Below, one piece after another: positions 10,473 to 58,573 of a DNA stretch of 64,000 bases (position 1 is its first letter; each line of letters starts with the position of its first letter). The stretch lies in the NCBI RefSeq assembly GCF_016526145.1, contig NZ_JADDUE010000007.1, positions 310,001 to 374,000 of the forward strand, written 5' to 3'. The notes beneath the pieces were generated by a model, which saw only the letters and a list, made by a program, of their open reading frames with translations, was not told the origin of the DNA and did no database searches. The position numbers and the translations under genes were made by a program. The DNA comes from Saccharopolyspora galaxeae (lineage in GTDB: Bacteria > Actinomycetota > Actinomycetes > Mycobacteriales > Pseudonocardiaceae).

Positions 10473-10474
10473 GT

Positions 10475-10928: not shown

Positions 10929-11050
10929 GAATGCCGACTTCGACAGGGTCTTGCCCTCGAAGGCGAGGATCAAAACAGCAGCGCACAGGTATCTTGCGCC
11001 GCCTGGAACATCACTTGACGGGATGTGTCCATCGATGCTTTCATCGAACC

Positions 11051-11416: not shown

Positions 11417-11518
11417 CCCGATCGCGACGTCCCATCAACATCCCTCGATAGGAGATCCGAGCCCCAGCCGAAGCGTCCCGCGCCAAGAATCGTCCTACCG
11501 AACTCCAGGCGGCCGACC

Positions 11519-12196
11519 ATGTCCACGTCACCCCAGCACCACCACGACGCCGAGGAATACCGGCTGACCGACCCACACGTCACCGAACTCCTCGACCGCG
11601 CCACCGCCGACCTGCAACCCCAGTTCCAGGGGATCTTCGGCCCGGAAACCATCCGCGCGGTATTGGACGAGACCTACACGCAACTCAACGCCACAGCCCG
11701 GGTGCACACCCACCTCGCCACACTCGCGACGCGATTCGCCCGCGAACGTCTCACCTCGATTGCCAAGAACCAAGGAGCCCTCGTGTCCTCGACCCCCGAA
11801 GTGCTGTTCGTCTGCGTGCACAACGCCGGCCGATCCCAGATGGCCGCCGCACTGCTGCACCACCGCGCCCAAGGCCGAGTCACCGTCCGTTCGGCCGGCT
11901 CCGCGCCGGCCGAGACCATCAACCCAGCGGTGGTGCTCGCGATGGCCGAACTCGACCTCGACCTGTCCCAGGAATTCCCCAAGCCTCTGACCACCGAGGC
12001 GGTCGAAGCCGCCGACGTCGTGATCACGATGGGCTGCGGGGACGCGTGCCCGGTCTTTCCCGGCAAGCGCTACCTCGACTGGGAACTCGACGACCCCGCC
12101 GGTAAGTCGGTCGAGGAGGTCCGCGCCGTCCGCGACGAGATCGACCGCCGCGTCACCGGACTGCTGGCCGAGCTGGCACCGGAGGCCGCGCGGTGA
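11519..12196 (+). CDS. arsC: Arsenate reductase, actinobacterial type with N-terminal helical domain
   Basis: 225 residues. Residues ~15-85 are a helical domain like the three-helix-bundle dimerisation segment found before some actinobacterial ArsC enzymes. Residues ~94-220 are a low-molecular-weight-phosphatase-fold ArsC with the active loop Cys99-Val-His-Asn-Ala-Gly-Arg-Ser and a second Cys pair, Cys173 and Cys177, in Gly-Cys-Gly-Asp-Ala-Cys-Pro. It reduces As(V) to As(III), using a mycothiol/mycoredoxin or thioredoxin cycle. The stop overlaps the GTG start of the following thioredoxin reductase, which supports a thiol relay. Confidence 0.9.
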
Positions 12197-13197
12197 CGGG
12201 CGAGGTCCGCAACCTGATCATCGTGGGCTCTGGCCCGGCCGGATACACCGCTGCGGTGTATGCGGCTCGCGCGGAACTCGAACCGCTCGTTTTTGAGGGC
12301 ACTCAGTTCGGTGGTGCGCTGATGACCACCACCGAGGTCGAGAACTACCCGGGCTTCCGCGACGGCATCATGGGTCCCGACCTCATGGAGCAGATGCGCA
12401 ACCAAGCCCAGCGCTTCGGCGCCGACCTCCGGGCCGAGGACGTCGAGAACATCGCCCTCAGTGGCGAGACGAAAACAGTCCTCGCCAACGGCGTCGAGTA
12501 CCGCGCCAAGGCCATCATCCTCGCGATGGGCGCCGCCGCCCGCTACGTCGGCGTGCCCGGAGAAGACCGCCTGCTCGGACGCGGCGTGTCCTCCTGCGCG
12601 ACCTGCGACGGGTTCTTCTTCCGCGACCAGGACATCGCCGTCGTCGGCGGCGGGGATTCGGCGATGGAGGAAGCGACCTTCCTCACCCGCTTCGCCCGCT
12701 CGGTCACGATCATCCACCGCCGCGAGGAATTCCGCGCCTCCAAGATCATGCTCGAACGCGCCCGCGCGAACGAGAAGATCAAGTGGCGCACCAACGCCGT
12801 CGTCACCGAGGTCGTCGGCGACACCGCAGTCACCGGACTGAAGCTTCAGGACACGGTCACCGGCGTCGAATCCGAGCTTCCGGTGACCGCCATGTTCGTC
12901 GCCATCGGGCACGACCCGCGCAGCCAGCTCGTCCGCGACCAGCTCCAGGTCGACTCCGAGGGCTACGTCCTCGTGCAACAGCCCACCACGCACACGAGAA
13001 TCCCCGGCGTCTTCGCCGCTGGCGATCTGGTGGACAAGACTTACCGCCAGGCGGTCACCGCGGCCGGGACCGGTTGTGCGGCAGCCATCGACGCGGAACG
13101 CTGGCTGGCCGAGCACGAAGCGACCAGCGCCGCACACGTCGCACCCGAGCACACAGGCGGCGGATACGCCGCCGAGATCGGAGCCACCGCGCGCTGA
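12193..13197 (+). CDS. trxB: Thioredoxin reductase
   Basis: 334 residues, GTG start overlapping the arsC stop as GTGA. It has an FAD motif Gly-Ser-Gly-Pro-Ala-Gly at ~12-17, the redox pair Cys135-Ala-Thr-Cys138, an NADPH motif Gly-Gly-Gly-Asp-Ser-Ala and a C-terminal Ala-Ala-Gly-Asp motif: a complete low-molecular-weight TrxB. It probably recycles the thiol donor for arsenate reduction. It is last in the arsR-arsC-trxB operon and is followed by a strong hairpin. Confidence 0.93.
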
Positions 13198-14054: not shown

Positions 14055-15704
14055 TCACGGGTTCGGCGGGGTGGTCGACGTGAGGTGATCGGCGTCGGCG
14101 TGGTCTGCGAGGTAGCGCATGGCGGCCTGGGGGTGCATCCCGAAGGCGACGGCCACGAGTTTGGGGTCCATGCCGTTGACGAGGTCGAGCAGGCGGGTGC
14201 CGCGAAGTGTGCGTGGGGTGACGCCGTCGGGGAGCCGGGAGTTGAGGTAGTTCGCGGACGCCGGGTTCGACCTGGTTCTGGTGATGTGGTTGACCACGAG
14301 GTGGGGATTGCTGGTGTGCTGGGCCTGCCGGTGGGTCAGGCAGCGCTGCAGGATGGCCCAGCTTGCTGGGTCCAGCGGGACGGGGTGAGGGCGCTGACCC
14401 GTCCGGATTGTGCGGTCGGCGGGGTCGATGTCGGTGCATTGCAGGTGCTGGACTTCGCGGCTGGAAGCGCCGTGCAGCAGCGCGAGGATTCCGATCAGAG
14501 CCTCATGGGGATGGGTACTGGTGTCGGTGGTCCATCGGCGGAACAGGTCGCGTTGCTGCTGCATGGTCAGCGTCTGGCCGATGAATCCGTTCGGCGCTTT
14601 CGTAGATAGCCCAGCGGTGGGATCGATGAGCACGAGTCGATGGGTGCGAGCGAAACGGAAGAACTGCCGCAGCGCGGGCAATCGTCGTCTGGGCAGTTGT
14701 GAATCCTGGGCCAGGAATGCCTCGATGTCATGGATGTCCACTGTGGCCCAATCTGGCTTTCCGCGCTGTGTGAACAGGAAACGAGCCAGGTCGCGGACGG
14801 TGGACAGCAGGGAGTCGAGGGTGCTGTCGGCTCGGGGGCGGGTGCGGGCTCGGCTCGACCGTTGTCGCGCCCGCAGTAGTGCAGTCTCGAAGGCCGCGAC
14901 GGCCGCGCGCAACGATTTGGGTGTCTCGGCGATCCGGCGCTGGCGCCGTCCCGCCGCGAGCCGGGCGGCGTGATCGGTGGGCAGCGCGAGGTGGCGCTCG
15001 ACGAAGAAGTCTTCCAGGGCTCGTGCCAGCGTCCCCATCGACCGGCCCGGCTGACGAGCACGTTCCAAGAGCTGCTGGGGGTGGCAGCTGTGACCATCGG
15101 TGAGCAGCTGGCCGAGCGTGGTGATCAGGTCGCAGGCACGATCGACGGAATGGTGCTCGGCGAGGTAGGCCACGCAGTCAGGTAGCCACCGGGGCGGATC
15201 GGTGAGCCGGGCGATGAGGTTGTCGCCACGGACGAAGGGGCGGTCGGGATCGCGTTGGAAGCAAAGCCGGCACATGCCGTGCGCTTCGTGTCGTCGCACC
15301 TGGCCACAGGTCACGCAGGCGCGTGGTGGTTTCCGGGCTGGGCCTGGGTGGGAACAACGCCCGCACCTGCCCGTTTCTGCGCGTAGGAGGTATCGCTTGC
15401 CGCACCGTGGGCATGGTGCTTTCGCGGCTTCTCGGCCGGCCCGATGCTGGCAGGGACGGCAGATGGACGCGCCGCGGGCACGCACCGGCTTGCCGCACTC
15501 GGTGCAGCGGCGCGAGCAGGTCACGCACCGCCCGGTCTTGGTGACCAGGAGCCGAGCGTGGCCGCAGTCCGGGCATGGTTGCTTGGCGGCGGCCTTGCGG
15601 AGCCGCTGGGCGCATCGGGTGCAGTGCTGCCGGCCGAGAAGCCCGACCGGTTTGCCGCAGCGAAGGCAATCGCACCGTTTGTAGCCCATGGCACTCGCCG
15701 ACAC
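14055..15704 (-). CDS. Zn-ribbon tyrosine recombinase (TnpB-like)
   Basis: 549 residues. Residues ~10-155 contain about seven Cys-x2-Cys pairs, a row of zinc ribbons. Residues ~280-540 read as a tyrosine recombinase: an Arg in Ala-Ser-Ser-Arg-Glu-Val, a degenerate box Pro-Arg-Thr-Leu-Arg-Gly-Thr-Arg where the canonical His is Arg, then Gly-Met-His-Pro-Gln and Tyr531 in Met-Arg-Tyr-Leu. It begins three bases after the small HTH gene, third in a coupled operon. The domain pairing resembles TnpB of the Tn554 group. The altered His box suggests it acts together with the upstream recombinase. Confidence 0.8.
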   Translation of the reverse strand: MSASAMGYKRCDCLRCGKPVGLLGRQHCTRCAQRLRKAAAKQPCPDCGHARLLVTKTGRCVTCSRRCTECGKPVRARGASICRPCQHRAGREAAKAPCPRCGKRYLLRAETGRCGRCSHPGPARKPPRACVTCGQVRRHEAHGMCRLCFQRDPDRPFVRGDNLIARLTDPPRWLPDCVAYLAEHHSVDRACDLITTLGQLLTDGHSCHPQQLLERARQPGRSMGTLARALEDFFVERHLALPTDHAARLAAGRRQRRIAETPKSLRAAVAAFETALLRARQRSSRARTRPRADSTLDSLLSTVRDLARFLFTQRGKPDWATVDIHDIEAFLAQDSQLPRRRLPALRQFFRFARTHRLVLIDPTAGLSTKAPNGFIGQTLTMQQQRDLFRRWTTDTSTHPHEALIGILALLHGASSREVQHLQCTDIDPADRTIRTGQRPHPVPLDPASWAILQRCLTHRQAQHTSNPHLVVNHITRTRSNPASANYLNSRLPDGVTPRTLRGTRLLDLVNGMDPKLVAVAFGMHPQAAMRYLADHADADHLTSTTPPNP

Positions 15705-45137: not shown

Positions 45138-45797
45138 TCAGCCGTGCTTGAGCATCTGGTGCATGGTGTTGATCTCAGCTTGTTGGGAACTGATGATCCG
45201 CTGGGCCATCTGCTTGGCGGCGGGGAACTGGCCCTGTGCGAGCTCGGTTTGAGCCATGCCCACCGCTCCTTCGTGGTGCTTGATCATCATGGTGAGGAAC
45301 ATTCGGTCGAACTCGGGCCCGTTGACCTGCTGCAGCTTTTGCATGTCGTCGGCGGTCATCATGCCGGGCATGTTCCCGTGGTTCATGCCGGGCATATTCT
45401 CGCGCTCCATGCCCGGCATGGTGCCGTGGTTCATGGGCATGCCGGGCTGGGGTGTGGGGACACCCCAGCTGCGCAGCCAGCCGTTGAGCGTCTCGATTTC
45501 GGGGCCTTGGGCCACCTCGATCTGACGCGCGAGGTTCTTGACCTGGTCGGACTGGGCGCGTTCGGCGGCCAGTCGGGACATGTCGATGGCCTGGCTGTGG
45601 TGGGGAATCATGCCCTGGGCGAACGCCACGTCAGCGTTATTGTGCTGCCCGGCTGCGGCGGGCGGCTGGGAGGTGCTTGCCGGCGGGGTGGCGTGGTTCA
45701 TGCCCGGCATGCCCTGCTCGGAACCGGTACACGCGGCAAGGACGCCACCTGCGGTGGCGATGGCCAACGCAACGCCGACTGTGCGCATCGTGTTCAT
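45138..45797 (-). CDS. DUF305 lipoprotein, copper island (first copy)
   Basis: 219 residues. Signal peptide with lipobox Leu-Ala-Ala-Cys near residue 22. The DUF305 ferritin-like helical repeats carry Met-Ile-Pro-His-His-Ser-Gln and Met-Ile-Lys-His-His-Glu-Gly. Between them lies a Met/His-rich linker with repeated Met-Pro-Gly-Met and Asn-His-Gly units, a likely Cu(I) site. It is exported and probably stores or buffers copper outside the membrane. The second DUF305 copy at 49494 lacks this linker. Confidence 0.88.
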   Translation of the reverse strand: MNTMRTVGVALAIATAGGVLAACTGSEQGMPGMNHATPPASTSQPPAAAGQHNNADVAFAQGMIPHHSQAIDMSRLAAERAQSDQVKNLARQIEVAQGPEIETLNGWLRSWGVPTPQPGMPMNHGTMPGMERENMPGMNHGNMPGMMTADDMQKLQQVNGPEFDRMFLTMMIKHHEGAVGMAQTELAQGQFPAAKQMAQRIISSQQAEINTMHQMLKHG

Positions 45798-46456: not shown

Positions 46457-48790
46457 TTAGGAGCGCGTCGCGCTGGGCCGCGGTGAGGACACGTCGTGTG
46501 TTTCGGTGCCCAGCTGGCGTGGGTTGGTAGTGGTGCTGTGGAAGCGGCGCAGGCGCAGGCTGTTGGCGACGACGAACACGGAGCTGAACGCCATGGCGGC
46601 CCCGGCGATCATGGGGTTGAGGAGTCCGGCTGCTGCCAGCGGCAGGGCGGCGACGTTGTAGGCGAAGGCCCAGAACAGGTTGCCCTTGATGGTGCCGAGG
46701 GTTCGGCGGGCGAGCCGGATCGCGTCGACGGCCGCACGCAGGTCGCCGCGGACGAGGGTGAGATCGGATGCCTCGATGGCAACGTCGGTGCCGGTGCCCA
46801 TGGCCAGTCCGAGGTCGGCTTGGGCCAGTGCGGCGGCGTCGTTGATGCCGTCGCCGACCATGGCCACCACGCGGCCCTCTCGTTGCAGCCGGGCGACGAC
46901 GTCGACCTTGTCGGCGGGCAGGACCTCGGCGATGACCTCGTCGATGCCGACCTGCACGGCGATCGCCTGGGCGACGGCCTCGTTGTCGCCGGTCAGCAGC
47001 ACCGGCCGCAGCCCCAGGCCGCGCAGGCCGTGGATCGCCTCCGGCGAGGTGGGTTTGATGGTGTCGGCGATCACCAGCGCAGCGCGGGTTTGCCCGTCGA
47101 CGGCGGCGACGACGGCGGTACTGCCGTCCCGCTCGGCGTCCAGTTTGGCCTGCGCCAGCGTCTCGGGGACCCGGATACTCCATTGCTCCAACAGCTGCGC
47201 CCGGCCGACCAGGATGGCGTGGCCGTCGACGACGGCTTGCACGCCGAGTCCTTCGATGTTGGTGAACTCCTCGACTTCAGGGAGATCGCCGACGCGGTCG
47301 GCCGCGCCGCGCGCGATCGCTTGAGCGATGGGGTGCTCCGAGGCGTGCTCGGCGGCTCCGGCCAGTCGGAGTACTTCGTTCTTGTCGACGCTGTCGAGGG
47401 TGTGCACTGCGGTTAGGGACATCTGTCCGCTGGTGATGGTGCCGGTCTTGTCGAGCACGACGGTGTCGATGCGGCGGGTGGATTCGAGGACCTCGGGGCC
47501 CTTGAGCAGGATGCCCAGCTGGGCGCCGCGGCCGGTGCCGACCAGCAGCGCGGTGGGGGTGGCCAGTCCGAGTGCGCAGGGGCAGGCGATGATCAGTACG
47601 GCGACGGCGGCGGTGAACGCCGCTGTGGCTCCGGCTCCGGTGACGAGCCAGAAGATCAGGGTGGCCAGCGCCAGGGCGATGACGATCGGGACGAAGACCG
47701 CGGAGATGCGGTCGGCCAGGCGCTGGACGGCGGCCTTGCCGGTCTGGGCGTCTTCGACGAGCTTGGCCATCTGGGCCAGCTGGGTGTCCGAGCCGATTCG
47801 GGTGGCGCGGACGACGAGCCGACCACCGGCGTTGACCGTCGCGCCGGTCACGAGGTCGCCTCGGGCGACCTCGACCGGGACGGATTCGCCGGTGAGCATG
47901 CTGGCATCGACCGCCGAGGAGCCGTCTTCGATCACGCCGTCGGTGGCGATCTTTTCGCCGGGGCGGACGATAAAGTGGTCTCCGACGGCGAGCTGGTCGG
48001 TGGGGATGCGCTGTTCGTGGCCGTTGCGCAGGACCGTGACGTCCTTGGCGCCGAGTTCGAGCAGGGCGCGCAACGCTGCGCCCGAGCGTCGTTTGGATCG
48101 GGCTTCGAAGTAGCGGCCGGCGAGGATGAACGTGGTGACCCCGGCGGCGACTTCGAGGTAGATGTTCCCGTCGCCGCTGCCCGGTTGGACGGTCAGGGCG
48201 AACGGGTGGGTCATGCCGGGCATGCCGGCGGTGCCGAACAGCAGCGCGTACAGCGACCACGTGAATGCGGCCAGGGTGCCCATCGAGATCAGGGTGTCCA
48301 TGGTGGCCGCGCCGTGGCGCAGGTTCGTGGCCGCGGCGCGGTGGAACGGCCACGCGCCCCACACGACCACGGGAGCGGCCAGGGTCAGCGAGATCCACTG
48401 CCAGTAGGTGAACTGCAACAGCGGGATCATCGCCAGTGCGATGACCGGCACGGACAGCACGGCGGAAATGATCAGGCGTTCCCGCAGCGACCGCGTCGGG
48501 TCGTCGGAGTCACCGTCGCTGGTGGACGGTGTGTTCGTGCGAGCGGGTTGGGGCAGGGTGGCGGTGTAGCCGGCGGCTTCGACCTGGTCGATCAGCTGCT
48601 GCGGGTCCAGCCCCTCGGGGTAGGTGACCTTGGCCTTTTCGGTGGCGTAGTTGACCGTGGCGGCCACCCCGTCGAGCTTGCCCAGTTTCTTCTCGACCCG
48701 CGCCGCGCACGAGGCACAGGTCATGCCGCCGATAGCGAGCTCGACGTCCTGACTGGGCGAGGCCGTGGACTGATTTGTGGTGGTAGTCAT
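46457..48790 (-). CDS. copA: Cu(I)-exporting P1B-type ATPase
   Basis: 777 residues from ATG 48790 (AGGAGGG five bases upstream; the frame extends ten codons further). One N-terminal heavy-metal domain with Gly-Met-Thr-Cys25-Ala-Ser-Cys28, eight helices with the transport motif Cys-Pro-Cys, then Asp-Lys-Thr-Gly-Thr, a His-Pro motif and Gly-Asp-Gly-Ile-Asn-Asp. The last helices carry Tyr-Asn and Met-x2-Ser-Ser, the Cu(I)-specific set. It exports Cu(I). The order csoR-copZ-copA and the CsoR box fit standard copper control. Confidence 0.95.
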
Positions 48791-48867
48791 GGAGCCCTCC
48801 TGTGTCCCTCCGGTGCTCACGGACGTCGGAGGGGTCGACTGCTCCTGCTGGCGAGCAGTGATGGTGG

Positions 48868-49077
48868 TTAGCGGGCTGCCAGTTGGTAGCCGGCTTCTTC
48901 GACGGCGGCTTGCACGTCGTCGTTGCTGACCGGTTCAGCGCTGGTCACCGTCACCGCACCGGTGGCGAGGTTCACCGCGACGTCGGACACGCCGTCGATC
49001 TCGGTGAGCTCTTCGGTCACCGACCGGGCGCAGTGCTCGCAGGTCATGCCGGTCACGATGTAGGTCGTCTCGGTCAT
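48868..49077 (-). CDS. copZ: CopZ-type copper chaperone
   Basis: 69 residues from ATG 49077. A single heavy-metal-associated domain with Gly-Met-Thr-Cys-Glu-His-Cys at residues ~10-16. It delivers Cu(I) to CopA and CsoR. It lies between csoR and copA on the same strand. Confidence 0.92.
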
Positions 49078-49130
49078 AGCGATTCTTTCCTTCTCGATGT
49101 GAACCGTGCGTCGGTGCTCGTCGCGTTTGG

Positions 49131-49412
49131 TCAGGAGCGCACCAGGCGGGCGATGGCGTCGCTGGCTTCGCGGACCTTCTCGTCGGCGGCCTCGCCGCCT
49201 TCGGCCATGGCTTCGGCCAGGCAGTGTTTGAGGTGCTCGTCCATCAGTCCCAGCGCGACCGACTGCAGGGCTTTGGGGGTCGCGCCGATCTGGGTGAGCA
49301 CGTCGATGCAGTACTGGTCGTCGTCGATCATCTTTGCCAACCCGCGGACCTGGCCTTCGATGCGACGCAGCCGCTTGGCGTAGGCGTCCTTGTCCTGGGC
49401 GTAGCCATGCAT
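49131..49412 (-). CDS. csoR: CsoR copper-sensing repressor
   Basis: 93 residues from ATG 49412, with AGGAGG six bases upstream; a longer frame from TTG 49454 would run through the operator. The Cu(I) site is complete: Cys35, His60 and Cys64, in the expected C and H-x3-C spacing. It represses csoR-copZ-copA and releases DNA on Cu(I) binding. Compare the CstR-like paralogue at 24984, which lacks the His. Confidence 0.94.
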   Translation of the reverse strand: MHGYAQDKDAYAKRLRRIEGQVRGLAKMIDDDQYCIDVLTQIGATPKALQSVALGLMDEHLKHCLAEAMAEGGEAADEKVREASDAIARLVRS

Positions 49413-49434
49413 GGCGAGCCTCCTCGGGACTATT

Positions 49435-49454
49435 AGGGGGTAGGGGTATGTCAA
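49435..49454 (-). promoter_or_regulatory. CsoR box and -35 element of the csoR-copZ-copA operon
   Basis: On the minus strand TTGACA is followed at once by TACCCC and TACCCCC runs, 25-40 bases before the csoR start. C/G runs with TA borders are typical CsoR boxes. The overlap with the -35 implies simple promoter occlusion. Confidence 0.7.
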
Positions 49455-49493
49455 GATTTCGCGGGCTGGGGCGCTGAAGGGGATCTGCGGTGC

Positions 49494-50117
49494 TTACAGG
49501 TGGTTGAGCATCGACTGCATGTGCTGGATCTGTTGGTTTTGGGACTGCACGATCGAGTGCGCCAGCTGCTTCGCCTGCGGGTTCTCCCCGCCCTGGATCT
49601 CGGGCTGCGACATGGACACAGCGCCCTCGTGGTGGGCGATCATCTGGTGCAGGAACAGCTTGGAGGCAGCCGCGCCGTCGGCGTGCTCGAGCGCGGCGAG
49701 GTCGTCGGGGGAAAGCAGTCCCTGCATGCCCTGTGCTTGTTCGAGCGACATCGCGGACCCGGCGTTCCAGGCACCCAGCCACGACTGCATCGTGGCGATC
49801 TCCAGGCGTTGCTCGCGCTGGATCTTCTCGGTCATTTGGCGCACCTGCGGGTCCGGTCCCTGCTTCGGCAGCACGATCTCGGCCATCCGCAGCGCTTGCT
49901 GGTGGTGCGGAATCATCATCTTCACGAACTGCACGTCGGCCTGGTTGTGTGCCGGGCTCACCGCGGTGCCGGGTTGCGCGGGCGCGCTCGCGGCCGGCGG
50001 TGGTGGCGGACTCGCAGACGGTGCCTGGGGCGCTGGCCCTTCCGGGGAGCAGGCCGCAACGCCGGCCAGGCCCAGCGCGAGAACGGACGCGGCTGCGGTG
50101 CGGCGAAGGTTGATCAT
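49494..50117 (-). CDS. DUF305 lipoprotein, copper island (second copy)
   Basis: 207 residues with lipobox Val-Ala-Ala-Cys near residue 23, a Pro/Ala-rich linker and two DUF305 helical repeats with Met-Ile-Pro-His-His-Gln and Met-Ile-Ala-His-His-Glu. It lacks the Met-rich insert of the copy at 45138. A perfect CsoR-type box lies 56 bp upstream, so it should be copper-induced independently of csoR-copZ-copA. Confidence 0.88.
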   Translation of the reverse strand: MINLRRTAAASVLALGLAGVAACSPEGPAPQAPSASPPPPPAASAPAQPGTAVSPAHNQADVQFVKMMIPHHQQALRMAEIVLPKQGPDPQVRQMTEKIQREQRLEIATMQSWLGAWNAGSAMSLEQAQGMQGLLSPDDLAALEHADGAAASKLFLHQMIAHHEGAVSMSQPEIQGGENPQAKQLAHSIVQSQNQQIQHMQSMLNHL

Positions 50118-50172
50118 GCTGTCCTCTCACGTCCTTGATTGTTCGACCAGCTGACACTTGCGCTAACACCCC

Positions 50173-50187
50173 TACCCCCTAGGGGTA
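50173..50187. promoter_or_regulatory. Perfect CsoR-type palindrome between duf305 and the nuo-like operon
   Basis: TACCCC and GGGGTA flank CTA, a perfect dyad. It lies 56 bp before the DUF305 gene (minus) and 213 bp before the NuoA-like gene (plus). Control of the DUF305 gene is likely; effect on the nuo-like operon is only possible. Confidence 0.75.
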
Positions 50188-50399: not shown

Positions 50400-50750
50400 A
50401 TGAGCGGGTTCGCGATGGCGCTGTTGGTCCTGGTCGTGGTCGTGGTGGTGGTCAGCGGCGTGTACGGCGTGGCCTCGCTGGTGCAGATCGGACCGGGCAG
50501 CATCCGAGTGAGGCCGTTTCTGGCCGGTCATGCACCGTCCGAACATGCGTTTTCGCGTTTCCACGTGCGGTGGTATGCGCTGACGATGATTTATCTGGCG
50601 TTCGAGATGGAGATGCTGTTCATGTATCCGTGGGCGCTGGTCGTCTCGTCGGTGGGTACGAGCGCGGTCGTCGAAATGTTCGTGTTTCTGGGGATTTTGC
50701 TGGCTGGGGTGGCGTATGCGTGGCGGGAAGGGGCGTTGCGATGGGCGTGA
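50400..50750 (+). CDS. nuoA: NuoA-like subunit of a complex-I-type membrane arm
   Basis: 116 residues from ATG 50400. Three helices; the loop and TM2 carry Ile-Tyr-Leu-Ala-Phe-Glu-Met-Glu-Met-Leu-Phe-Met-Tyr-Pro-Trp-Ala, equivalent to the NuoA Phe-Asp-x-Glu-x3-Leu-x-Pro-Trp-Ala motif with Glu for the first Asp. First gene of an eight-gene run; its stop is overlapped ten bases by the next ATG. Confidence 0.85.
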   Translation: MSGFAMALLVLVVVVVVVSGVYGVASLVQIGPGSIRVRPFLAGHAPSEHAFSRFHVRWYALTMIYLAFEMEMLFMYPWALVVSSVGTSAVVEMFVFLGILLAGVAYAWREGALRWA

Positions 50751-51970
50751 CCGCCCTGTTGCGGCGCTTCGCCGCCGGGGTGCCCCAGGTGCTCGTCGCC
50801 GAGGCTCCAGGAGGTACCGCGTCTCGGTTGGCGGTTGAGCAACTGCTGCGCCGATGGGGATGGGTGCAGGTGTCCCATCCGGCGGATGCTGATGTCCTGG
50901 CCGTCGTCGGGCCTGCGGGGCCGCAGTGGACGAGCTTCGCCGATCAGCTGTGGGACCAGGTTCCGCAGCCCCGGGTTCGCGTGCAGGTCGGCAACGCGGC
51001 CGAGGCCGACATCGCGCTTCAGCGTGCGGCGAGCCTGCTAACCGACCAGGGCGAGGCGCCTCCCGTTGGTGAAGGAATGTCGGCGCGGCGTGGGCGGGAT
51101 GGTGCGGGCCACGCTGAGCACGGTCGTTCTGATGACCAGTCCCAGGGCCACGAGCAGCACGGTGGCGGCGGGATGGACATGCCGGGCGGTGTGCCCATGG
51201 CCGATCGTGGTCCGGATCGGGATGGACTGATGCTCGATCAGCTCCATGTGCCGCTCGGCCCGGTGCTGCCGGACTGGCCCGCCGGTCTCGTGCTGCACAC
51301 CACGCTGCAGGGCGATGTCGTGCAGAGAGCCCGGCTCGAGGTGATTCGCGATTACGGCGACGTGCCGGATTTCTGGAACGAGCCATGGCGCCGGTCAGCC
51401 TCTGGTGAGGCCGTCACGGCGGGCGAGGCCGCGCGGCGCCGCGCTGCGGCGCACCTGGACAGCCTGGCGAGGTTGCTGGCTGTGGCGGGCTGGCGTGACG
51501 CGGCGCTGCGGGGGCGGCGAGCCCGCGACGACGTGCTTGCGGGCGTGCCTGCCGAGGTGGTCGCTCGCCTGGTGCACCGGTTGGTCCGGTGGCTGCGTCG
51601 GTCGCGAACGCTGCGGTGGCTCACCGGTGGGTTGGGGGTCTTGCCCGCGGAGGCGGCCGAGGCCGCAGGGGTGACCGGGCCTACCTTGATGGCATCTCGT
51701 GCCGGGGGTGACGTGCGTGCGCGGTGGCAGGCGTGGCTGGCCGAGATCGAGCGATCGGTGCCCGCATTCGACGACGGCGCGCCATTGACCATCACCGATT
51801 CCGGGCCACGAGGACGGCTCGGTGCCGGCGGGTGTTCGGCGGCGGCTCTGGGGGTGCTTTCCGGGCTGGTGGAGGGGGCCGAGCTGGCCGGGGCGCGGTT
51901 GATCGTGGCCAGTTTGGATCCGGATATCGCCGAGCTCGACCACGTCGACGTGGGAGCGGTGGATGGCTGA
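50741..51970 (+). CDS. NuoB/NuoD-like fusion lacking Fe-S ligands, with His/Met-rich linker
   Basis: 409 residues. Residues ~1-100 resemble NuoB in outline (Ala-Asp-Val-Leu-Ala-Val-Val-Gly-Pro, then Gln-Val-Pro-Gln-Pro-Arg-Val) but have none of the four cluster-N2 cysteines. Residues ~123-160 are a His/Asp/Met-rich linker (Gly-His-Glu-Gln-His; Met-Asp-Met-Pro-Gly-Gly). Residues ~165-205 resemble the start of NuoD (Leu-His-Val-Pro-Leu-Gly-Pro, then Leu-Gln-Gly-Asp-Val-Val); the rest is helical and unassigned. The only Cys is Cys365, so no Fe-S cluster can form. It overlaps nuoA and nuoH. Probably a structural cap of a membrane arm, not an electron carrier. Confidence 0.7.
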   Translation: MGVTALLRRFAAGVPQVLVAEAPGGTASRLAVEQLLRRWGWVQVSHPADADVLAVVGPAGPQWTSFADQLWDQVPQPRVRVQVGNAAEADIALQRAASLLTDQGEAPPVGEGMSARRGRDGAGHAEHGRSDDQSQGHEQHGGGGMDMPGGVPMADRGPDRDGLMLDQLHVPLGPVLPDWPAGLVLHTTLQGDVVQRARLEVIRDYGDVPDFWNEPWRRSASGEAVTAGEAARRRAAAHLDSLARLLAVAGWRDAALRGRRARDDVLAGVPAEVVARLVHRLVRWLRRSRTLRWLTGGLGVLPAEAAEAAGVTGPTLMASRAGGDVRARWQAWLAEIERSVPAFDDGAPLTITDSGPRGRLGAGGCSAAALGVLSGLVEGAELAGARLIVASLDPDIAELDHVDVGAVDG

Positions 51971-52892
51971 AGCTCCAGTGTGGAACGTGCTCGTGCTGCC
52001 CGTGTTGTTGGGGGCGGGTGCGGTCGCGGCGCTCGTCTTCGATGCGTCTTTGGCGGCACGCGCGGCTGGACGACCGGTGTCGGCGTCAGCGGCGTTGAGC
52101 GCACCGCTGCGTGCGGTGGTGCGGCTGCTGATCACGCAAAGGCGGACGACCGCGGCAGCTGACGCGGTGCTGTGGCGCACCGGCGTGGTGCTTGTTCCGG
52201 TCCTGGCGGTGCTGGCCGGATCGGTGCTGCCGCTGGGCGGGGTGGCCGTGTCGGATCTCGCGGTGGGGGTCGTGTGGTTCAACGCGATGGAGATCCTGAC
52301 CTGGGCGGCGGTGTGGATGGCCGGCTGGGGCCCGAATGCGGCGCTGTCCCTGGTCGGTGGGTACCGGTTCGTGGCCCAGGGGTTGGCTTACGAGTTGCCG
52401 CACATGTTCGCGTTGATCACGGCGGCCACCGGTGCGGGCACGTTGCGGGTGGGCGGGATCGTCGAGGCCCAGTCCGGGTTGTGGTTCGTGGTGTGGATGC
52501 CGGTCGCCTTCGTCGTCTATCTGCTCAGTGCGATGGCGATGGCGTTCTGGGGCCCGTTCGACGCGCCGCTGGGGCATGACCTCGCCGGCGGAGCGGCGGG
52601 GGAGTCCTCCGGTGTGGACCGGCTGGTGTTCCTCGGTGGGCGGTGGTTGCTGCTGGTGGTCGCGGTGGCGATGGCGGTGCCGCTGTTCCTCGGAGGAGGC
52701 GGTGGGCCCTGGCTGCCGGGCTGGGTGTGGACGGTGCTCAAGACTGCCGCGGTGCTGGGCGTGGTCGTGTGGGTCGGTCGCCGGTTTCCCACGGTGCGGA
52801 TGGAGCGGTTCGCCGAGTTCGCCTGGGTGGTGCTGGTCCCGCTGACGGTCCTGCAGGCGCTGGTCGTCGCGCTGGTGGTGCTGGTGCGGTGA
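51963..52892 (+). CDS. nuoH: NuoH-like subunit with altered quinone-site loop
   Basis: 309 residues, eight helices, ATG inside the end of the preceding gene. Gly-Trp-Gly-Pro-Asn-Ala-Ala-Leu-Ser-Leu-Val-Gly-Gly-Tyr-Arg and Tyr-Glu-Leu-Pro are the NuoH core. The canonical acidic loop Pro-Phe-Asp-Leu-Pro-Glu-Ala-Glu reads Pro-Phe-Asp-Ala-Pro-Leu-Gly-His here, and the later Glu-rich loop is reduced, so the quinone-linked proton path is changed. It anchors the NuoB/D-like subunit in the model. Confidence 0.85.
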   Translation: MAEAPVWNVLVLPVLLGAGAVAALVFDASLAARAAGRPVSASAALSAPLRAVVRLLITQRRTTAAADAVLWRTGVVLVPVLAVLAGSVLPLGGVAVSDLAVGVVWFNAMEILTWAAVWMAGWGPNAALSLVGGYRFVAQGLAYELPHMFALITAATGAGTLRVGGIVEAQSGLWFVVWMPVAFVVYLLSAMAMAFWGPFDAPLGHDLAGGAAGESSGVDRLVFLGGRWLLLVVAVAMAVPLFLGGGGGPWLPGWVWTVLKTAAVLGVVVWVGRRFPTVRMERFAEFAWVVLVPLTVLQALVVALVVLVR

Positions 52893-52902
52893 AAAGGGGT
52901 GC

Positions 52903-53466
52903 GTGGTGACGGTTGCGTTGTTCTGGCTGTTCGCGGTCGGCGCTCTGGTGTCCGGGTTCTTGGTGTTTCGGTTGAACTCGATGGCGCGGGTGACGTTCGC
53001 GTTGCTGGCCTCGTTCGTGTTCGTGGCCGCGGAAGTGGTGCTGCTCGGGTTGGCCTACCTCGGCGTGGTGATCGTGTTGATGATGGTCATGGAAATGGTG
53101 ATCATGGCCTTGTTCATGGTCATGTACATGATGAATCCCGCCGGGCTGATGCCGATGGCGATGGAACACAACAAGACCGGCGCCGCGGCGATCTCGGTCG
53201 GGACTTTCGTCGTGCTCGCGGTGGGCATCGTGCTCGTCGACTGGCCGCAGCGGGCTGGGATGCCGCCGCCGGACCCGACGGTCGCGCTCGGGGAAGCGCT
53301 GATGGGCCCGCACATGCTGACCATGATGACCCTGGGGGTGGCGCTGTTCGCCACCATCGTCGCCACCGTCGTTCTGGCCACCCACCGGGGGCGCTACGAC
53401 CGGTGGGGCGACGACCTGCGCGTCGTCCGCGCCGACGATCCGGTGCGTGGGGGGATCGGGCGGTGA
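52903..53466 (+). CDS. nuoJ: NuoJ-like subunit
   Basis: 187 residues from GTG 52903 (or GTG 52906). Five helices with Leu-Leu-Gly-Leu-Ala-Tyr-Leu-Gly-Val-Val-Ile-Val-Leu in TM3, where the conserved Tyr-Gly pi-bulge region of NuoJ lies. TM3-TM4 and the following loop are unusually Met-rich (Met-Met-Val-Met-Glu-Met; Met-Val-Met-Tyr-Met-Met). Stop overlaps nuoK. Confidence 0.85.
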   Translation: MVTVALFWLFAVGALVSGFLVFRLNSMARVTFALLASFVFVAAEVVLLGLAYLGVVIVLMMVMEMVIMALFMVMYMMNPAGLMPMAMEHNKTGAAAISVGTFVVLAVGIVLVDWPQRAGMPPPDPTVALGEALMGPHMLTMMTLGVALFATIVATVVLATHRGRYDRWGDDLRVVRADDPVRGGIGR

Positions 53467-53768
53467 GCCTGGAGCTGTTCCTGCTGCTCGGTGCCGGGCT
53501 GTTCGCCATCGGCCTCTACGGAGCGTTGTCGCAGCAGTCGATCGTGATGCTGATGATGGGCCTGGAGCTGATGCTCAATGGCATCACCGTTGCGGCGGCG
53601 GCATTCTGGCACTACGTCGCTCCGTCCAATTCGGACGGTCAGGTTCTGATCATCGTGGTGATCACCGCGATGGCGGTGGAGATGGCGGTCGGTTTCGCCG
53701 TGGTGACGGCGATTTTCCGCGCCCGGGATGTGGACATGACCGACATGGCCGCGGATCTCAAGGAGTAG
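53463..53768 (+). CDS. nuoK: NuoK-like subunit
   Basis: 101 residues from GTG 53463, overlapping nuoJ as GTGA. Three helices; Met-Gly-Leu-Glu-Leu-Met-Leu-Asn carries the conserved TM2 Glu, and Ala-Met-Ala-Val-Glu-Met-Ala-Val-Gly carries the TM3 Glu. Both proton-path acids are kept, so this MrpC-like subunit should still conduct. Confidence 0.9.
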   Translation: MSLELFLLLGAGLFAIGLYGALSQQSIVMLMMGLELMLNGITVAAAAFWHYVAPSNSDGQVLIIVVITAMAVEMAVGFAVVTAIFRARDVDMTDMAADLKE

Positions 53769-53771
53769 CCG

Positions 53772-55643
53772 ATGGGCGCGCTGGCATGGCTGCTGGTCGC
53801 GGTGCCGCTGGGCACCGGGGCAGTGCTGGCGTGCACCGGTAGGCGAGGCGATCGGATCGCGCCCGTAGTCGGAATCGCCGGCGCGGGGATCACGGTCGTG
53901 CTCGCCGTGCTGGCAGCGGTGGTGCGCCCTGCGGCGACCGCGCCCTTTCTGCAGGGGATGGACGCGGGTGTGGCCGTTGAAGGGCTTTCGGCGGTCCTGG
54001 TGGTCACGGTCGCGGTGGTCACTCTGGCGGTGCTGGTCTTCGCCGTGGGCGAGTTCGGCCGGGATGAGTCGCGGGCTCGGTTTTTCGGGCTGATGTTGCT
54101 GTTCGCGGGAGCCATGCTCGTCACGGTCACCGCCACCGGCCTCGCCCTGCTGCTTATGGGCTGGGAGGTCATGGGTGCAACGAGCTGGGCTTTGATCGGG
54201 TTCTGGTGGCGCGACCCTCGCCGGGTGCACGCGGCCAACGTTGCGTTTCTGACTACCCGCGCCGCGGATCTTGGTCTCTACCTCGCGGCCGGGGCGGCGC
54301 TCGCCGGAGGTGTCGGCACGCTCGCCCTCGCGGAGCTGCCCGCGGTGAGGTCACCCTGGCTGACCGTGCTCACCGTGGGGATCGTGCTGGCCGCGTTGGG
54401 CAAATCGGCCCAGGTGCCGTTCCACTTCTGGCTTTCGCGTGCCATGGAAGGTCCGAGCCCGGTCTCGGCGCTGCTGCACTCGGCCACCATGGTCGCCGCT
54501 GGTGCGTACCTGCTTCTCCGCCTGCACCCGGTACTGGCCGCCTCCGGTTGGGGCGGCCCCTTGGTCGCCTGGTGCGGTGCGAGCACCGCGCTGGCGCTGG
54601 GCCTGGTCGCGGTCGCGCAAACCGACCTCAAGCAGTTGCTCGCGGCCTCGACGTGTGCGCAGATCGGGTTCATGGTGCTGGCCGCGGGCACCGGCGGAAT
54701 CACCGCCGGCACGATGCAACTGGTGGCGCACGCGGCGACCAAGTCCGCGCTGTTCCTGGCCGCCGGAGCGTGGCTGACCGCGCTCGGCACGAAGGCACTG
54801 CCCTCCTTGCGGGGTGCCGCGCGGCGCCATCCGGTGGTGGGCGTGACGTTCGCGCTGGCTGCCGCGACGCTGGCCGGGTTGCCTCCGCTGTCGCTGTGGG
54901 TGACCAAGGACGCCGTGCTGGCCGCGACGGCAGAACACGCGATCGGCTTGTACGTGGTGGGACTGGCCGCCGCGGTGGTTTCCGCCGGGTACAGCGTCAA
55001 AGCGGTCTGGTTCGTCTGGCAACCAGTACCCGCCGACGCCGCGACCAGGTGGGACACGGAGCAGCCCGGCTCCCGCGAGGTGTCCGCCTTTGCCTGGCCG
55101 GTACTGGTGGTGCTGGCCGGCCTGGCTGCGGTCTTGGGGGTGTTCGGCCTGCCGTCGGTGGCCGAGAGCGCGCGAGGTCTGCTGGGTGCGGGACCTGCCG
55201 CCGCACCCCGCGTGTGGGAGCTTGCGCTGTCGGCGGCACTCGCCGTCGGCGGGTCGGCTTTGGCTTGGTGGTGGGGAGATCGACCGGTGCCGCTCACCGC
55301 ATCAGTACGGCGATGGTCACGGGACTGGCTCGGGTTCGAGCGCGCTGCCACGGTGCTGCTCGTGCGGCCCACGATGGTGCTCGCTCGCGCACTGGCGGTC
55401 TTCGACGACCGCATCCTCGACCGGGCTGTGCGGTCCGTGCCCGCACTCGGTATGTGGCTGGCCGAGCTCGCCAACCGGCGCACGGAAATCCCCGTCGACG
55501 GTCTCGTGCACGGCCTCGCCCACGGTGCCCGACGGCTCGGAAGGCTCGCCCGGCGCCCGCAAACCGGGCAACTGCACCAGTACTACGCCCAAGCCGTCAC
55601 GGTGCTGGCCGTGCTCGCCCTGCTGATCATCCTCGTGAGGTAG
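53772..55643 (+). CDS. nuoL: NuoL-like antiporter subunit
   Basis: 623 residues, three bases after nuoK. The antiporter residues are present: Glu in Gly-Trp-Glu-Val-Met (TM5), Lys in Leu-Gly-Lys-Ser-Ala-Gln-Val-Pro-Phe-His (TM7), Lys in Thr-Asp-Leu-Lys-Gln (TM8) and Lys in Trp-Val-Thr-Lys-Asp (TM12). The C-terminal ~120 residues contain the long lateral helix region (Arg-Pro-Thr-Met-Val-Leu-Ala) and a last helix, so it can clamp to its partners as in complex I. Confidence 0.9.
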   Translation: MGALAWLLVAVPLGTGAVLACTGRRGDRIAPVVGIAGAGITVVLAVLAAVVRPAATAPFLQGMDAGVAVEGLSAVLVVTVAVVTLAVLVFAVGEFGRDESRARFFGLMLLFAGAMLVTVTATGLALLLMGWEVMGATSWALIGFWWRDPRRVHAANVAFLTTRAADLGLYLAAGAALAGGVGTLALAELPAVRSPWLTVLTVGIVLAALGKSAQVPFHFWLSRAMEGPSPVSALLHSATMVAAGAYLLLRLHPVLAASGWGGPLVAWCGASTALALGLVAVAQTDLKQLLAASTCAQIGFMVLAAGTGGITAGTMQLVAHAATKSALFLAAGAWLTALGTKALPSLRGAARRHPVVGVTFALAAATLAGLPPLSLWVTKDAVLAATAEHAIGLYVVGLAAAVVSAGYSVKAVWFVWQPVPADAATRWDTEQPGSREVSAFAWPVLVVLAGLAAVLGVFGLPSVAESARGLLGAGPAAAPRVWELALSAALAVGGSALAWWWGDRPVPLTASVRRWSRDWLGFERAATVLLVRPTMVLARALAVFDDRILDRAVRSVPALGMWLAELANRRTEIPVDGLVHGLAHGARRLGRLARRPQTGQLHQYYAQAVTVLAVLALLIILVR

Positions 55644-55646
55644 CCC

Positions 55647-57152
55647 GTGCTGTCGCTGATCGTGTTCCTGCCGCTGGCGGCCGCGGCGATCCTCGCCGCG
55701 GTGCCCGCCTCGGCCGGGCGGCGGGTGTTCGTGTGGAGCTGGATCGGGATCACCGCAGCCGATTTCGCCTTGGTCGTGGCGGCCTGGATCGGCTACGAAG
55801 CCGGGACCGGACTCGCGTATGAGGAGAATCTGCGGTGGATTCCCAGCGCCGGAGTCGGTTACCACGTCGGTCTCGACGGGCTCTCGCTGCCGCTGGTGGC
55901 GATGACCGCACTGCTGTTCTTGGCCTGCGCGGTCCATTCGCTGCGGCACACGCAGCGGATCAAGAGCTTCGCGCTGCTGTTCCTTTTCCTGCAGACGGTG
56001 AGCATGGGATTGTTCACCGCGCTCGATTTGATCCTGTTCTTCGTCTACTTCGATCTGTCCATTGTGGGCATGTACTTCGTCATCGCCGGGTGGGGGCACG
56101 GCAACGCCCGCGAGTCGGCGTTGAAGTTCTTCCTCTACACCTTCATCGGCTCGCTGGCGCTGTTGCTGGGGTTCATCGGCCTGTACCTGGCCGCCGAGCC
56201 GCACACCTTCGACCTCGTCGCCCTCGCCCGTGCGAACCCGTTGGCGGGCAGGGGTGTCTTCGGCGGGCTGGTGCTGCTCGCGATCAGCATCGGTCTCGCG
56301 GTCAAAACCCCGACCGTGCCGCTGCACACCTGGCTCCCGCCGGCCCACACTGACGCTCCGGCTGCCGGGTCAGCGATCCTGGCCGGGGTGTTGCTGAAGA
56401 TGGGCACCTACGGTTTCGTCCGCATCGCAATGCCGCTGCTGCCCGGAACATGGCGGCACTACGCGGCGGTCGTCGTCATCATCGGCGTGGTCTCGGTGCT
56501 CTACGGCGCGCTCGTCGCACTGGCCCAAGAAAACTTCAAGCGGATGGTGGCCTACACCTCGGTCAACCACATGGGCTACATCGTTCTCGCTGTCGGTGCC
56601 GCCGGCATTCTCGCCGGGAGTGACGGGCAAGCCCGCTCGTTGGCCGTGACCGGGGCGGTGACCCAGATGGTCAGCCACGGTCTGCTCACCGCCGCGCTGT
56701 TCCTGCTCGCCGGGGTCTTCTACGACCGCAGCCGCACCTACGACATGGGCGCCTACTCCGGTTTGGCCGCTCCAGCACCGGTCTTCGCGGGTGTCACCGC
56801 GCTGGTCGCCTTCGCCTCTTTCGGCCTGCCCGGCTTCTCCGGGTTCATCGCTGAGTTCCAGATCTTCACCGGAAGCCTCGCTTCAGCCACCGTGGCCACC
56901 GCGTTGGCGCTGCTCGGCATCCTGATCACGGCCGGACTGTTCCTGCGGGTCGTGCACCGGATCTTCCTCGGGGAGCTGCGGGTGCCCGATTCCCCTGGCG
57001 CGGCCCGCGAGTTCACCGATCTGCGAGTCAGCGAAACCACGGCGATCGTGCCTCTGCTGGCGCTGGCCGTTGTCATCGGCGTGCTGCCGCGGTTTCTCCT
57101 CGACGTGATCGAACCCGCCTCGACGACGCTGATCGGTCTGGTCAGCCGATGA
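55647..57152 (+). CDS. nuoM: NuoM-like antiporter subunit
   Basis: 501 residues from GTG 55647. Fourteen helices. The TM5 acid is Asp rather than Glu (Val-Tyr-Phe-Asp-Leu). The TM7 Lys is present in Val-Lys-Thr-Pro-Thr-Val-Pro-Leu-His-Thr-Trp-Leu-Pro, followed by Pro-Ala-His-Thr-Asp where Asp-Ala-His-Thr-Glu is usual. TM8 Lys (Asn-Phe-Lys-Arg-Met) and TM12 Glu (Ile-Ala-Glu-Phe) are kept. Stop overlaps nuoN. Confidence 0.9.
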   Translation: MLSLIVFLPLAAAAILAAVPASAGRRVFVWSWIGITAADFALVVAAWIGYEAGTGLAYEENLRWIPSAGVGYHVGLDGLSLPLVAMTALLFLACAVHSLRHTQRIKSFALLFLFLQTVSMGLFTALDLILFFVYFDLSIVGMYFVIAGWGHGNARESALKFFLYTFIGSLALLLGFIGLYLAAEPHTFDLVALARANPLAGRGVFGGLVLLAISIGLAVKTPTVPLHTWLPPAHTDAPAAGSAILAGVLLKMGTYGFVRIAMPLLPGTWRHYAAVVVIIGVVSVLYGALVALAQENFKRMVAYTSVNHMGYIVLAVGAAGILAGSDGQARSLAVTGAVTQMVSHGLLTAALFLLAGVFYDRSRTYDMGAYSGLAAPAPVFAGVTALVAFASFGLPGFSGFIAEFQIFTGSLASATVATALALLGILITAGLFLRVVHRIFLGELRVPDSPGAAREFTDLRVSETTAIVPLLALAVVIGVLPRFLLDVIEPASTTLIGLVSR

Positions 57153-58573
57153 CCATGAACGAGAACCCCGCCGCGCTGATCCCCGAACTCGCGCTCGTCG
57201 CCGGAGCCGTGCTGGGTCTGCTGCTGGGCTCCTGGCTGCCACGGCATCGGCAGTGGCTCGTGCGCGTGCTTGCGGGCACCGCGTGCGTCGTCGGCCTGGT
57301 TGCCACCGTCATCGCAATGCGCACAGCCCCCGAAACGGTCTTCGGTGACAGCTTCGCCGTCGACACCGCCACCAACGCGGCCCGATTCATCGTGCTGGCC
57401 GCCACCCTGCTCACGCTGTGTTTGTCGATCGACACCGTCGACTCCCACCATCGGGAAACCGAGTTCTACGCCTTGGTGCAACTGGGCGCACTCGGCACGA
57501 TCATGCTCGTCGGCGCACTCGACCTGCTGCTGCTCGTGGCCGCCTACCTCCTCGCTTCCTTGCCGCTGTACGCGCTGGCCGGGTTCGGCAAGGATGCGCC
57601 GGGCACCGAGGCTGCATTGAAGTACTATCTCATGGGCGTCTTGTTCGGCGTCCTCATGCTCGCCGGGACCACCGTCCTCTACGGCACCGGCGGAGCCACC
57701 GACTACGCCACGCTCGCCCGCACACTGCCCGACACCTCCCGTGCCGCGGTCGCGATCGGCGTGCTCGCCGTCCTCGCCGGGCTGCTGTTCAAAATCGGCG
57801 GCGTGCCCGCGCACTTCTGGGTTCCCGACGTCACCGACGGCGCCACGACACCCGTCGCCGCGTTCGTCACCACAGTGCCCAAGATCGGTGGCCTAGCCGC
57901 CGCCTACCGGCTCGTCGTCGAGGCACTGCCCGCGGTGAGCCTCGACTGGCCCCTGTTGATCGCGATCCTGGCCACCGCATCGATGACACTGGGAAACCTC
58001 GCCGCGTTCTTCCAGGAGAATGTCCGCCGCCTGCTGGCCTACTCCACGATCAGCCAAGTCGGCTACGTTCTCATGGCCGTTGCGGTCGCCACCCGCAGCA
58101 GTCTCGCCCTGCCCGCCCTGCTGTTCTACCTAGCCGCCTACACCGTGACCAACCTCGGCGCGTTCGCCGTCGTCGCCGAACTCCCCGACGCGAGACGACT
58201 CGCCGACTACCGCGGCTTGGCCAGGCGGCATCCCGGATTAGCCGCCGTCCTCGTCGTGTGCCTGCTCGGCCTGGTCGGAACCCCGCCCACCGCGGTGTTC
58301 CTCGGCAAACTCGTCGTGTTCACCGCCACGATCAACGGTGACCTCGCGTGGCTGGCGGTCGTCGCGGTCATCAACACCGTCGCCAGCCTCTTCTACTACC
58401 TGCGCTGGATCGCCCCAGCTCTGTTCACCGCCCCCGACCGCGAGCACGACACGCTCGTTCCGGCCGGACGGTTCGCAGCGCTCGGCGCCTACACCGCCGG
58501 AACAGCCTCCCTCGCCCTCGGCCTCGCAGGAGGACTCGTGCTCCCCCTCGGTGCCGGACCCTTGCTGCCGTAG
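57149..58573 (+). CDS. nuoN: NuoN-like antiporter subunit lacking the TM5 glutamate
   Basis: 474 residues, ATG overlapping nuoM as ATGA. The TM7 Lys (Leu-Phe-Lys-Ile-Gly-Gly-Val-Pro-Ala-His-Phe-Trp) and later Lys are kept. The TM5 segment, normally Glu-Leu-x-Ser-Leu-Pro, reads Tyr-Leu-Leu-Ala-Ser-Leu-Pro, so the conserved Glu is lost. Last gene of the operon, followed by a long hairpin. Confidence 0.9.
   Translation: MTMNENPAALIPELALVAGAVLGLLLGSWLPRHRQWLVRVLAGTACVVGLVATVIAMRTAPETVFGDSFAVDTATNAARFIVLAATLLTLCLSIDTVDSHHRETEFYALVQLGALGTIMLVGALDLLLLVAAYLLASLPLYALAGFGKDAPGTEAALKYYLMGVLFGVLMLAGTTVLYGTGGATDYATLARTLPDTSRAAVAIGVLAVLAGLLFKIGGVPAHFWVPDVTDGATTPVAAFVTTVPKIGGLAAAYRLVVEALPAVSLDWPLLIAILATASMTLGNLAAFFQENVRRLLAYSTISQVGYVLMAVAVATRSSLALPALLFYLAAYTVTNLGAFAVVAELPDARRLADYRGLARRHPGLAAVLVVCLLGLVGTPPTAVFLGKLVVFTATINGDLAWLAVVAVINTVASLFYYLRWIAPALFTAPDREHDTLVPAGRFAALGAYTAGTASLALGLAGGLVLPLGAGPLLP

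Follow-up and report, generated by a model that had tools for sequence, protein, structure and literature searches.

The 64,000-nucleotide stretch of Saccharopolyspora galaxeae DNA analysed here (NCBI RefSeq assembly GCF_016526145.1, contig NZ_JADDUE010000007.1, positions 310,001 to 374,000 of the forward strand; hereafter the window) carries at 50400-58573 an operon of eight plus-strand genes that resembles the membrane arm of respiratory complex I. An earlier note on this DNA, made from the sequence alone, had read the genes as NuoA, a NuoB/NuoD-like fusion (BD from here on), NuoH, J, K, L, M and N, and both the coordinates and the identities held up: all seven membrane subunits (A, H, J, K, L, M and N) scored above the Pfam cut-off, and BD was identified by predicted structure. 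In order, the products are NuoA-like (50400-50750; PF00507, E 1.9e-23), BD (50741-51970; 409 amino acids, its gene overlapping nuoA by 10 nt), NuoH-like (51963-52892; PF00146, E 6.8e-43), a methionine-rich NuoJ-like protein (52903-53466; PF00499, E 6.9e-12), NuoK-like (53463-53768; PF00420, E 1.2e-14) and three antiporter subunits matching PF00361, namely NuoL-like (53772-55643; E 2.8e-53), NuoM-like (55647-57152; E 3.5e-61) and NuoN-like (57149-58573; E 1.2e-55). The genes had been described as overlapping, which applies to four of the junctions (by 4-10 bases), while the remaining three have gaps of 3-10 bases. Since a canonical nuo operon exists elsewhere in the genome (G000, 6.4 Mb), on contig C21, where NuoA, B, C, D, H, I, J, K, L, M and N were read, the window set is additional to the complex I of the cell. 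Mrp cation/proton antiporters have the NuoL/M/N-type subunit in common with it and are without NuoA, H and B/D; the Mrp gene set MrpA-G was not matched in the window operon, which encodes NuoA, H, J, K and BD instead.

A search for the gene set across actinobacterial genomes, which the earlier note had suggested, found the same eight-gene order in all 138 other loci collected, except for five that are cut by contig ends (L139, L145, L148, L202 and L204). Within the order, 77 of 397 genomes (23 of 85 genera) gave a BD match; in a sample of 396 genomes from the phylum, a BD profile matched 30 (21 of 237 genera), the window's own genome being included in both counts. Scanning GTDB genomes yielded 218 relatives. 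The 80 best of them were retained (the GTDB-named set) and include Streptomyces, Actinomadura, Nonomuraea, Nocardiopsis, Amycolatopsis, Arthrobacter and Leifsonia. The 138 loci consist of 38 from the 77 genomes of the order, 20 from the 30 genomes of the phylum (in six of which BD was detected only as an open frame or via canonical NuoB/NuoD queries) and the 80 GTDB-named ones; with the window they make 139. When the start of BD is placed at the first start codon near the nuoA end, it lies 10 nt within nuoA in 80/80 GTDB-named loci and in 38 of 39 rows of a further set that includes the window. In a tree of joined NuoH/L/M/N rooted on E. coli, 136 of the 139 members (the remainder are without a subunit) formed a single clade (support 1.0, stem 0.66) to the exclusion of 18 canonical sets. 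This clade divides into branches of 119, 9 and 8 members (supports 0.57, 1.0 and 0.90). The eight-gene set is a conserved family. A relic or pseudogene set could be ruled out, the eight window genes being intact and the order and key residues being kept in the 138 other loci across three deep branches. Locus counts overstate independence because the loci are related: L040 comes from the window's own species, and pairs such as L152/L153, L176/L198 and L226/L228 give identical figures. Beyond Actinomycetota there was a single 4.7-kb contig of a Trueperaceae metagenome-assembled genome (L204), which may be mis-binned. BD was also matched on 14 plasmid records, including a conjugative-typed Arthrobacter FB24 plasmid and plasmids of human Mycobacterium avium/intracellulare isolates. 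Separately, G381, a genome of the same species, has the cluster a second time in full (L041, C1:5100265), accompanied by CsoR, CopZ and CopA, with a BD that is 56% identical.

Against Pfam profiles the window BD stayed below cut-off (49kDa, E 0.0032; Oxidored_q6, E 0.28), and longer BD relatives exceed the NuoD cut-off. Predicted structure with fold look-up confirmed both a NuoB and a NuoD fold; the B part was barely tested in the look-up with the whole model and was therefore folded separately. BD, as modelled, is a protein that folds as NuoB plus NuoD. The single cysteine that the earlier note had reported for it is indeed the only one, at residue 365 in the D part, and our check for iron-sulfur (Fe-S) ligands found none. 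Across the family, the Cys-Cys pair of NuoB that ligates cluster N2 is present in 1 of 139 BD proteins vs 17 of 17 canonical NuoB, and the best cysteine column of the BD alignment is filled in 49/139. The quinone His of the NuoD motif HPxxHG is Pro in 139/139 BD proteins and His in 19/19 canonical ones. The R[LM]DY motif with the quinone Tyr occurs in 0/139 BD proteins, yet merely 10/18 canonical NuoD have it, so this test alone is weak. The large subunit of group 4 [NiFe] hydrogenases binds NiFe through two CxxC motifs; neither such CxxC pairs nor a conserved cysteine column was found in the 139 BD sequences. A misread BD frame concealing Fe-S ligands was ruled out by the structure model together with the alignment.

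The genes for electron input, NuoC, E, F, G and I, had been noted as missing, and none of them was matched immediately beyond the operon or, outside BD, beside it in the 38 order, 20 phylum and 80 named loci (unlinked copies were not searched), using as queries NuoB, C, D and I of the same genome and NuoE, F, G and I of E. coli. The sole matches in the 38 order loci were two weak NuoB ones (L049 and L056), both within the BD gene. The proton path, in contrast, is largely conserved, with residues numbered as in E. coli and rows counted over the family including the window. NuoL keeps E144, K229, H254, K305, H338, K342 and K399 in 136-137 of 137 rows; NuoM keeps K234, K265, H322, H348 and E407 in 134-136 of 136, with E144 replaced by Asp in the window and in 129 of the 136; NuoN has K217 in 122, K247 in 135 and K395 in 136 of 137. 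Similarly, NuoK has E36 in 139/139 (E72 in 131/139), and NuoA has E81 in 139/139, with Glu at the position of E. coli D79 in the window protein; both NuoK acids are kept in the window. NuoH retains E157 in 123/139, as in the window, and its quinone-side acids are changed (E36, E71 and E216, with Glu at position 71 in 8/139), while NuoJ Y59 has become Met in 138/139. The alignment thus agrees with the earlier note on the retention of antiporter residues in L, M and K, on the loss of the Glu in transmembrane helix (TM) 5 of NuoN (L134 in the window) and on the alterations in NuoM and NuoH. Because the N2 ligands and the quinone His are absent family-wide, no NADH-oxidising module lies beside the operon and the proton path is conserved, we consider the arm repurposed away from NADH oxidation, as had been proposed; that the complex translocates anything is something we infer from these residues.

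NuoA, J and K stand out by their conserved methionines. If a position is taken as fixed and family-specific when 95% or more of the family share a residue that 18-19 canonical sets rarely have, such positions are Met at 16 of 33 in NuoA/J/K vs 1 of 45 in NuoH/L/M/N (p 8.6e-7, treating columns as independent). In NuoJ, 11 columns are Met in 138-139 of 139 rows and, among the residues listed, in none of 18 canonical NuoJ. They include a stripe in TM3 and the following loop (residues 57-89; 53071-53169, plus strand), where, by computed angles, Met 61, 65, 68, 72 and 76 share one face of the helix with E64 adjacent, followed in the loop by M85, M87 and H89; at the start of TM5 lie M134 (131/139) and M138 (139/139). 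Family-specific methionines are also found in NuoA (M75) and NuoK (M29, M31, M70 and M74), and several lie within one turn of conserved acids of NuoA and NuoK and, less strictly, of NuoH (M148 in 127/139). Composition bias was ruled out as a source of the methionines, NuoL/M/N not being Met-rich. BD usually has a linker rich in His and Met, which in the window is disordered and rich in His, Met and Asp (residues 112-144; 51074-51172, plus strand; predicted local distance difference test score, pLDDT, below 50 at 112-133 and 135-144). Over 139 sequences, BD linkers average 9.0% His and 5.0% Met vs 1.8% and 1.1% in the remainder of BD, and 116/139 hold at least 5 His/Met/Cys. HMBD (PF19335), a generic metal domain, scored above cut-off in 6 of 10 chosen BD relatives (L141, L142, L143, L144, L146 and, twice, L149); the HMBD-bearing proteins belong to one distant branch, in which L147 is without the domain, and the HMBD motif stands within the linker of 8/139 BD proteins.

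Upstream of the operon, 227 bp before nuoA, lies the 15-bp core of a CsoR-type operator, TACCCCCTAGGGGTA (50173-50187), identical to the core of the Streptomyces lividans CsoR operators of copZA1 and copZA2, which are verified sites (PMC3902906, Table 1). It separates the operon from a block of genes that faces it on the minus strand and encodes a DUF305 protein, probably a lipoprotein (49494-50117; PF03713, E 1.3e-42), a CsoR-type repressor (49131-49454; PF02583, E 5.2e-28), a CopZ-like copper chaperone (48868-49077; HMA, E 6.1e-16 as part of a longer reading frame, with NCBIfam CopZ models best but sub-cut-off), a CopA-like copper P-type ATPase (46457-48820; TIGR01511 copper-translocating P-type ATPase above cut-off, and Pfam) and a second DUF305 protein (45138-45797; PF03713, E 7.2e-54). 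DUF305 is the domain of CopM, described as a copper-binding resistance protein (PMC4335983). An 'HMA' open reading frame of 433 amino acids at 48868-50169 (minus strand) is not one gene, as its own frame holds only CopZ, at its end, and CsoR and DUF305 lie in other frames. The operator is the sole TACCC-N(4-6)-GGGTA site within the window, and TACCC-N5-GGGTA occurs at 4 places in the 6.4-Mb genome; of the other three, one precedes another csoR-copZ-copA operon, one precedes a DUF4396 gene, and the third, whose core differs, may be chance. Among the 139 loci, 12 (the window and L040 included) have the box within 1 kb upstream of nuoA, giving 13 sites vs 0.08 expected from its rate inside the operons (1 in 1.11 Mb) and in controls (0 in 0.76 Mb). 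To judge by this operator, the window operon looks copper-controlled via CsoR. The DUF4396 protein (L289:3973-4452; about 93.97 kb on C21 of the same genome) has an HQHH N-terminus, and the position of its gene just behind a CsoR-type box suggests a further member of the copper regulon.

Copper genes also adjoin the cluster elsewhere. At least one of six copper markers was encoded within 6 kb of 60 of 138 loci vs 0 of 40 random regions of the same genomes (Fisher p 5.7e-9; control flanks were 12 kb and those of the loci 8.6 kb on average), so chance linkage could be ruled out. The markers were CopA (29 loci), CsoR (28), DUF305 (24), multicopper oxidase (10), DUF326 (9) and CopZ (6); CopA, CsoR and DUF305 were significant individually. 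By set, the rate was 20/38 in the order, 12/20 in the phylum and, more weakly, 28/80 in the GTDB-named loci, and outside the latter 26 of 36 genera had at least one copper-flanked locus. We inspected 7 of the 14 plasmid records. In the Curtobacterium C1 and Pseudonocardia alni plasmids, genes for a multicopper oxidase, DUF305, a metal-sensitive regulator, HMA and a P-type ATPase adjoin the cluster (BD is not annotated as a single gene in P. alni); the Arthrobacter FB24 plasmid has a multicopper oxidase and DUF305 there, and M. avium pHP17a a P-type ATPase and an HMA gene. On the Rhodococcus and Streptomyces plasmids the cluster appears to lack genes, though the gene table used has gaps of its own. 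Regulators of other types recur as well, ArsR-family ones near 15/138 loci and BlaI/CopY-type ones near 18/138, each 0/40 in controls. Genes for the BlaI/CopY-type repressor, in many cases together with an M56/M48 peptidase, and for an NlpC/P60 hydrolase are repeatedly found next to the cluster (among named loci, for example, L156, L170 and L191), and 14 of 17 loci with this repressor are absent from the csoR list of the same neighbour tally; it possibly provides an alternative metal control.

The operon itself is already published, and its copper link is new. Passages of PMC6676996 report a partial nuo-operon of the order nuoA-hypothetical-nuoHJKLMN from Streptomyces SM17/SM18, from Salinispora and from Kocuria flava S43 and interpret it as a trait for osmotic stress, citing Penn and Jensen 2012 and Ian 2014, and passages of PMC6002675 treat the Kocuria operon as a marine adaptation. 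The gene order matches, and this is very likely the same family, likened here by the published description rather than by alignment; the BD identity, the copper link and the methionines are absent from those passages, which take the osmoadaptation view. The operator core is identical to those of copZA1 and copZA2, and the three sites under CsoR control that PMC3902906 describes do not include a nuo-like operon. A 2025 survey of complex I places 2,171 species in a category 'incomplete C-I', to which sets like this one would belong, and the word copper does not occur in the main text of that source (PMC12361115). A literature search, with subscription journals mostly and bioRxiv preprints wholly outside its coverage, brought up no paper recognised as describing a copper-linked complex I variant. 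The set shares with respiratory complex I the homologous A, H, J, K, L, M and N subunits, the NuoB/NuoD folds and the proton-path residues, and differs from it in being without the N2 cysteines and adjoining NuoC/E/F/G/I, in the His to Pro change, in its Met-rich A/J/K and in the metal-binding BD insert. In the copper transporters CusA and CTR1, methionines carry Cu(I) through the membrane. No sequence relation to them is expected, and the methionines here sit in a complex I core.

Taken together, we hold with high confidence that the family is a copper-linked and redox-dead derivative of complex I, which most likely, to judge by its residues and surroundings, moves or responds to copper rather than oxidising NADH. 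Our favoured reading, advanced tentatively as one that falls just short of probable, is that this non-redox derivative moves Cu(I), probably outward, in a proton-coupled manner. The E-channel of complex I, built from acidic residues of NuoH/A/J/K, connects the quinone site with the antiporters, and methionines serve as ligands in Cu(I) transporters. Combining the two, we propose that the core handles Cu(I) and is joined to a cap that gathers copper and an arm that translocates protons. Copper would de-repress the operon. On the cytoplasmic face, the His/Met linker of the BD cap, or its HMBD domain, would capture Cu(I) and deliver it to the A/J/K core, where the former E-channel is lined with Met and Glu. 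Proton flow through L/M/N would then drive Cu(I) across the membrane, most likely outward, to the DUF305 proteins and multicopper oxidases that are encoded beside some copies. The broader form, that a branch of complex I became a proton-coupled transition-metal transporter, with the E-channel re-lined with Met and the quinone module turned into a copper-loading cap, may be correct as well, and we put it forward still more tentatively. Several observations weigh against copper transport. The route across the membrane is one we infer from homology, and NuoN has Leu in place of the TM5 Glu (E. coli E133), both in the window and in 128/137 rows. The methionines could be a sensor or regulatory site rather than a path, and 13/139 linkers hold fewer than 3 His/Met/Cys (L199, L217 and L224 one each; in L229 the linker was not found). 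Just 12 of the 139 loci have the operator within 1 kb upstream, and all six copper markers are missing within 6 kb of 78/138, of which 52 belong to the 80 GTDB-named loci. Singly, CopZ (p 0.34), multicopper oxidase (p 0.12) and DUF326 (p 0.21) are not significant; the search proteins were representatives of neighbour clusters, which biases the comparison toward the cluster side, and on the Gordonia plasmid no copper gene accompanies the cluster within the displayed stretch. Moreover, CopA-type ATPases already export Cu(I), so that a second exporter needs a reason.

The nearest rival, which we judge unlikely, is a copper-gated proton channel or pump, in which Cu(I) bound at BD and the Met core would switch proton flow through L/M/N and so protect pH or the proton-motive force, copper itself staying untransported. 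It shares the operator, neighbour and residue evidence with copper transport, and the several methionines within one turn of E-channel acids lie where coupling of complex I is controlled. However, the run of methionines from the NuoJ loop (M85, M87 and H89) via TM3 to the start of TM5 exceeds a single regulatory site, and an ungated proton leak would be costly. Less likely than this, and in our view improbable, is a redox machine with an unknown partner, where Cu(I)/Cu(II) or an unlinked soluble protein would supply electrons and the arm would pump protons: copper is redox-active, BD carries metal-binding motifs and multicopper oxidases stand beside 10/138 copies, but the quinone His is Pro throughout, the NuoB Cys-Cys pair is missing in 138/139, the quinone-side acids of NuoH are changed, and R[LM]DY is wholly absent, for what that motif is worth given its patchy canonical occurrence.

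The generic nature of HMBD and the ArsR-family and BlaI/CopY-type regulators seen near the loci and in none of the controls would suit the handling of another soft or borderline metal (Ag(I), Zn(II) or Cd(II)) in place of copper; with CsoR, CopZ, copper-type ATPases, DUF305 and multicopper oxidases all pointing to copper, we regard this as rather improbable. Very improbable, finally, is the published role of the partial nuo-operon, that of a proton or cation pump for osmotic or salt stress. The kept antiporter residues are consistent with it, and it is stated in PMC6676996 and PMC6002675 from occurrence in marine isolates, in passages that hold no gene-level test. The same passages, moreover, record the operon in SM254, from copper-rich mine fluid (PMC6676996), and name Kocuria marina SO9-6, which came from a copper iron sulphide mineral, among the nuo carriers (PMC6002675). 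An osmotic role also leaves the CsoR operator, HMBD and the methionines unexplained.

How the quinone site drives distant antiporter subunits is a long-standing problem of complex I coupling, and a variant with proton machinery, no recognisable redox driver and a putative copper input in the coupling channel would be a direct test system for it. To our knowledge, no relative of complex I has so far been found to transport metal ions beyond alkali cations, and Cu(I) transport, if true, would be a first for the superfamily. An operon published as a marine adaptation is re-read here as copper-linked, and the family supplies a candidate copper system carried on actinobacterial plasmids. As for the remainder of the window, arsenic genes lie at 7135-13197, encoding ArsB (7135-8601, minus strand), an ArsA ATPase with three matched stretches (8598-10748, minus strand), an ArsC-like low-molecular-weight phosphatase (11519-12196, plus strand) and a thioredoxin reductase-like protein (12193-13197, plus strand); together with the copper block they make the window look like a metal-resistance region. 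Near them, a 549-amino-acid protein (14055-15704, minus strand) has N-terminal CxxC pairs and a weak phage-integrase SAM-like match below cut-off, and is possibly the integrase of a mobile element.

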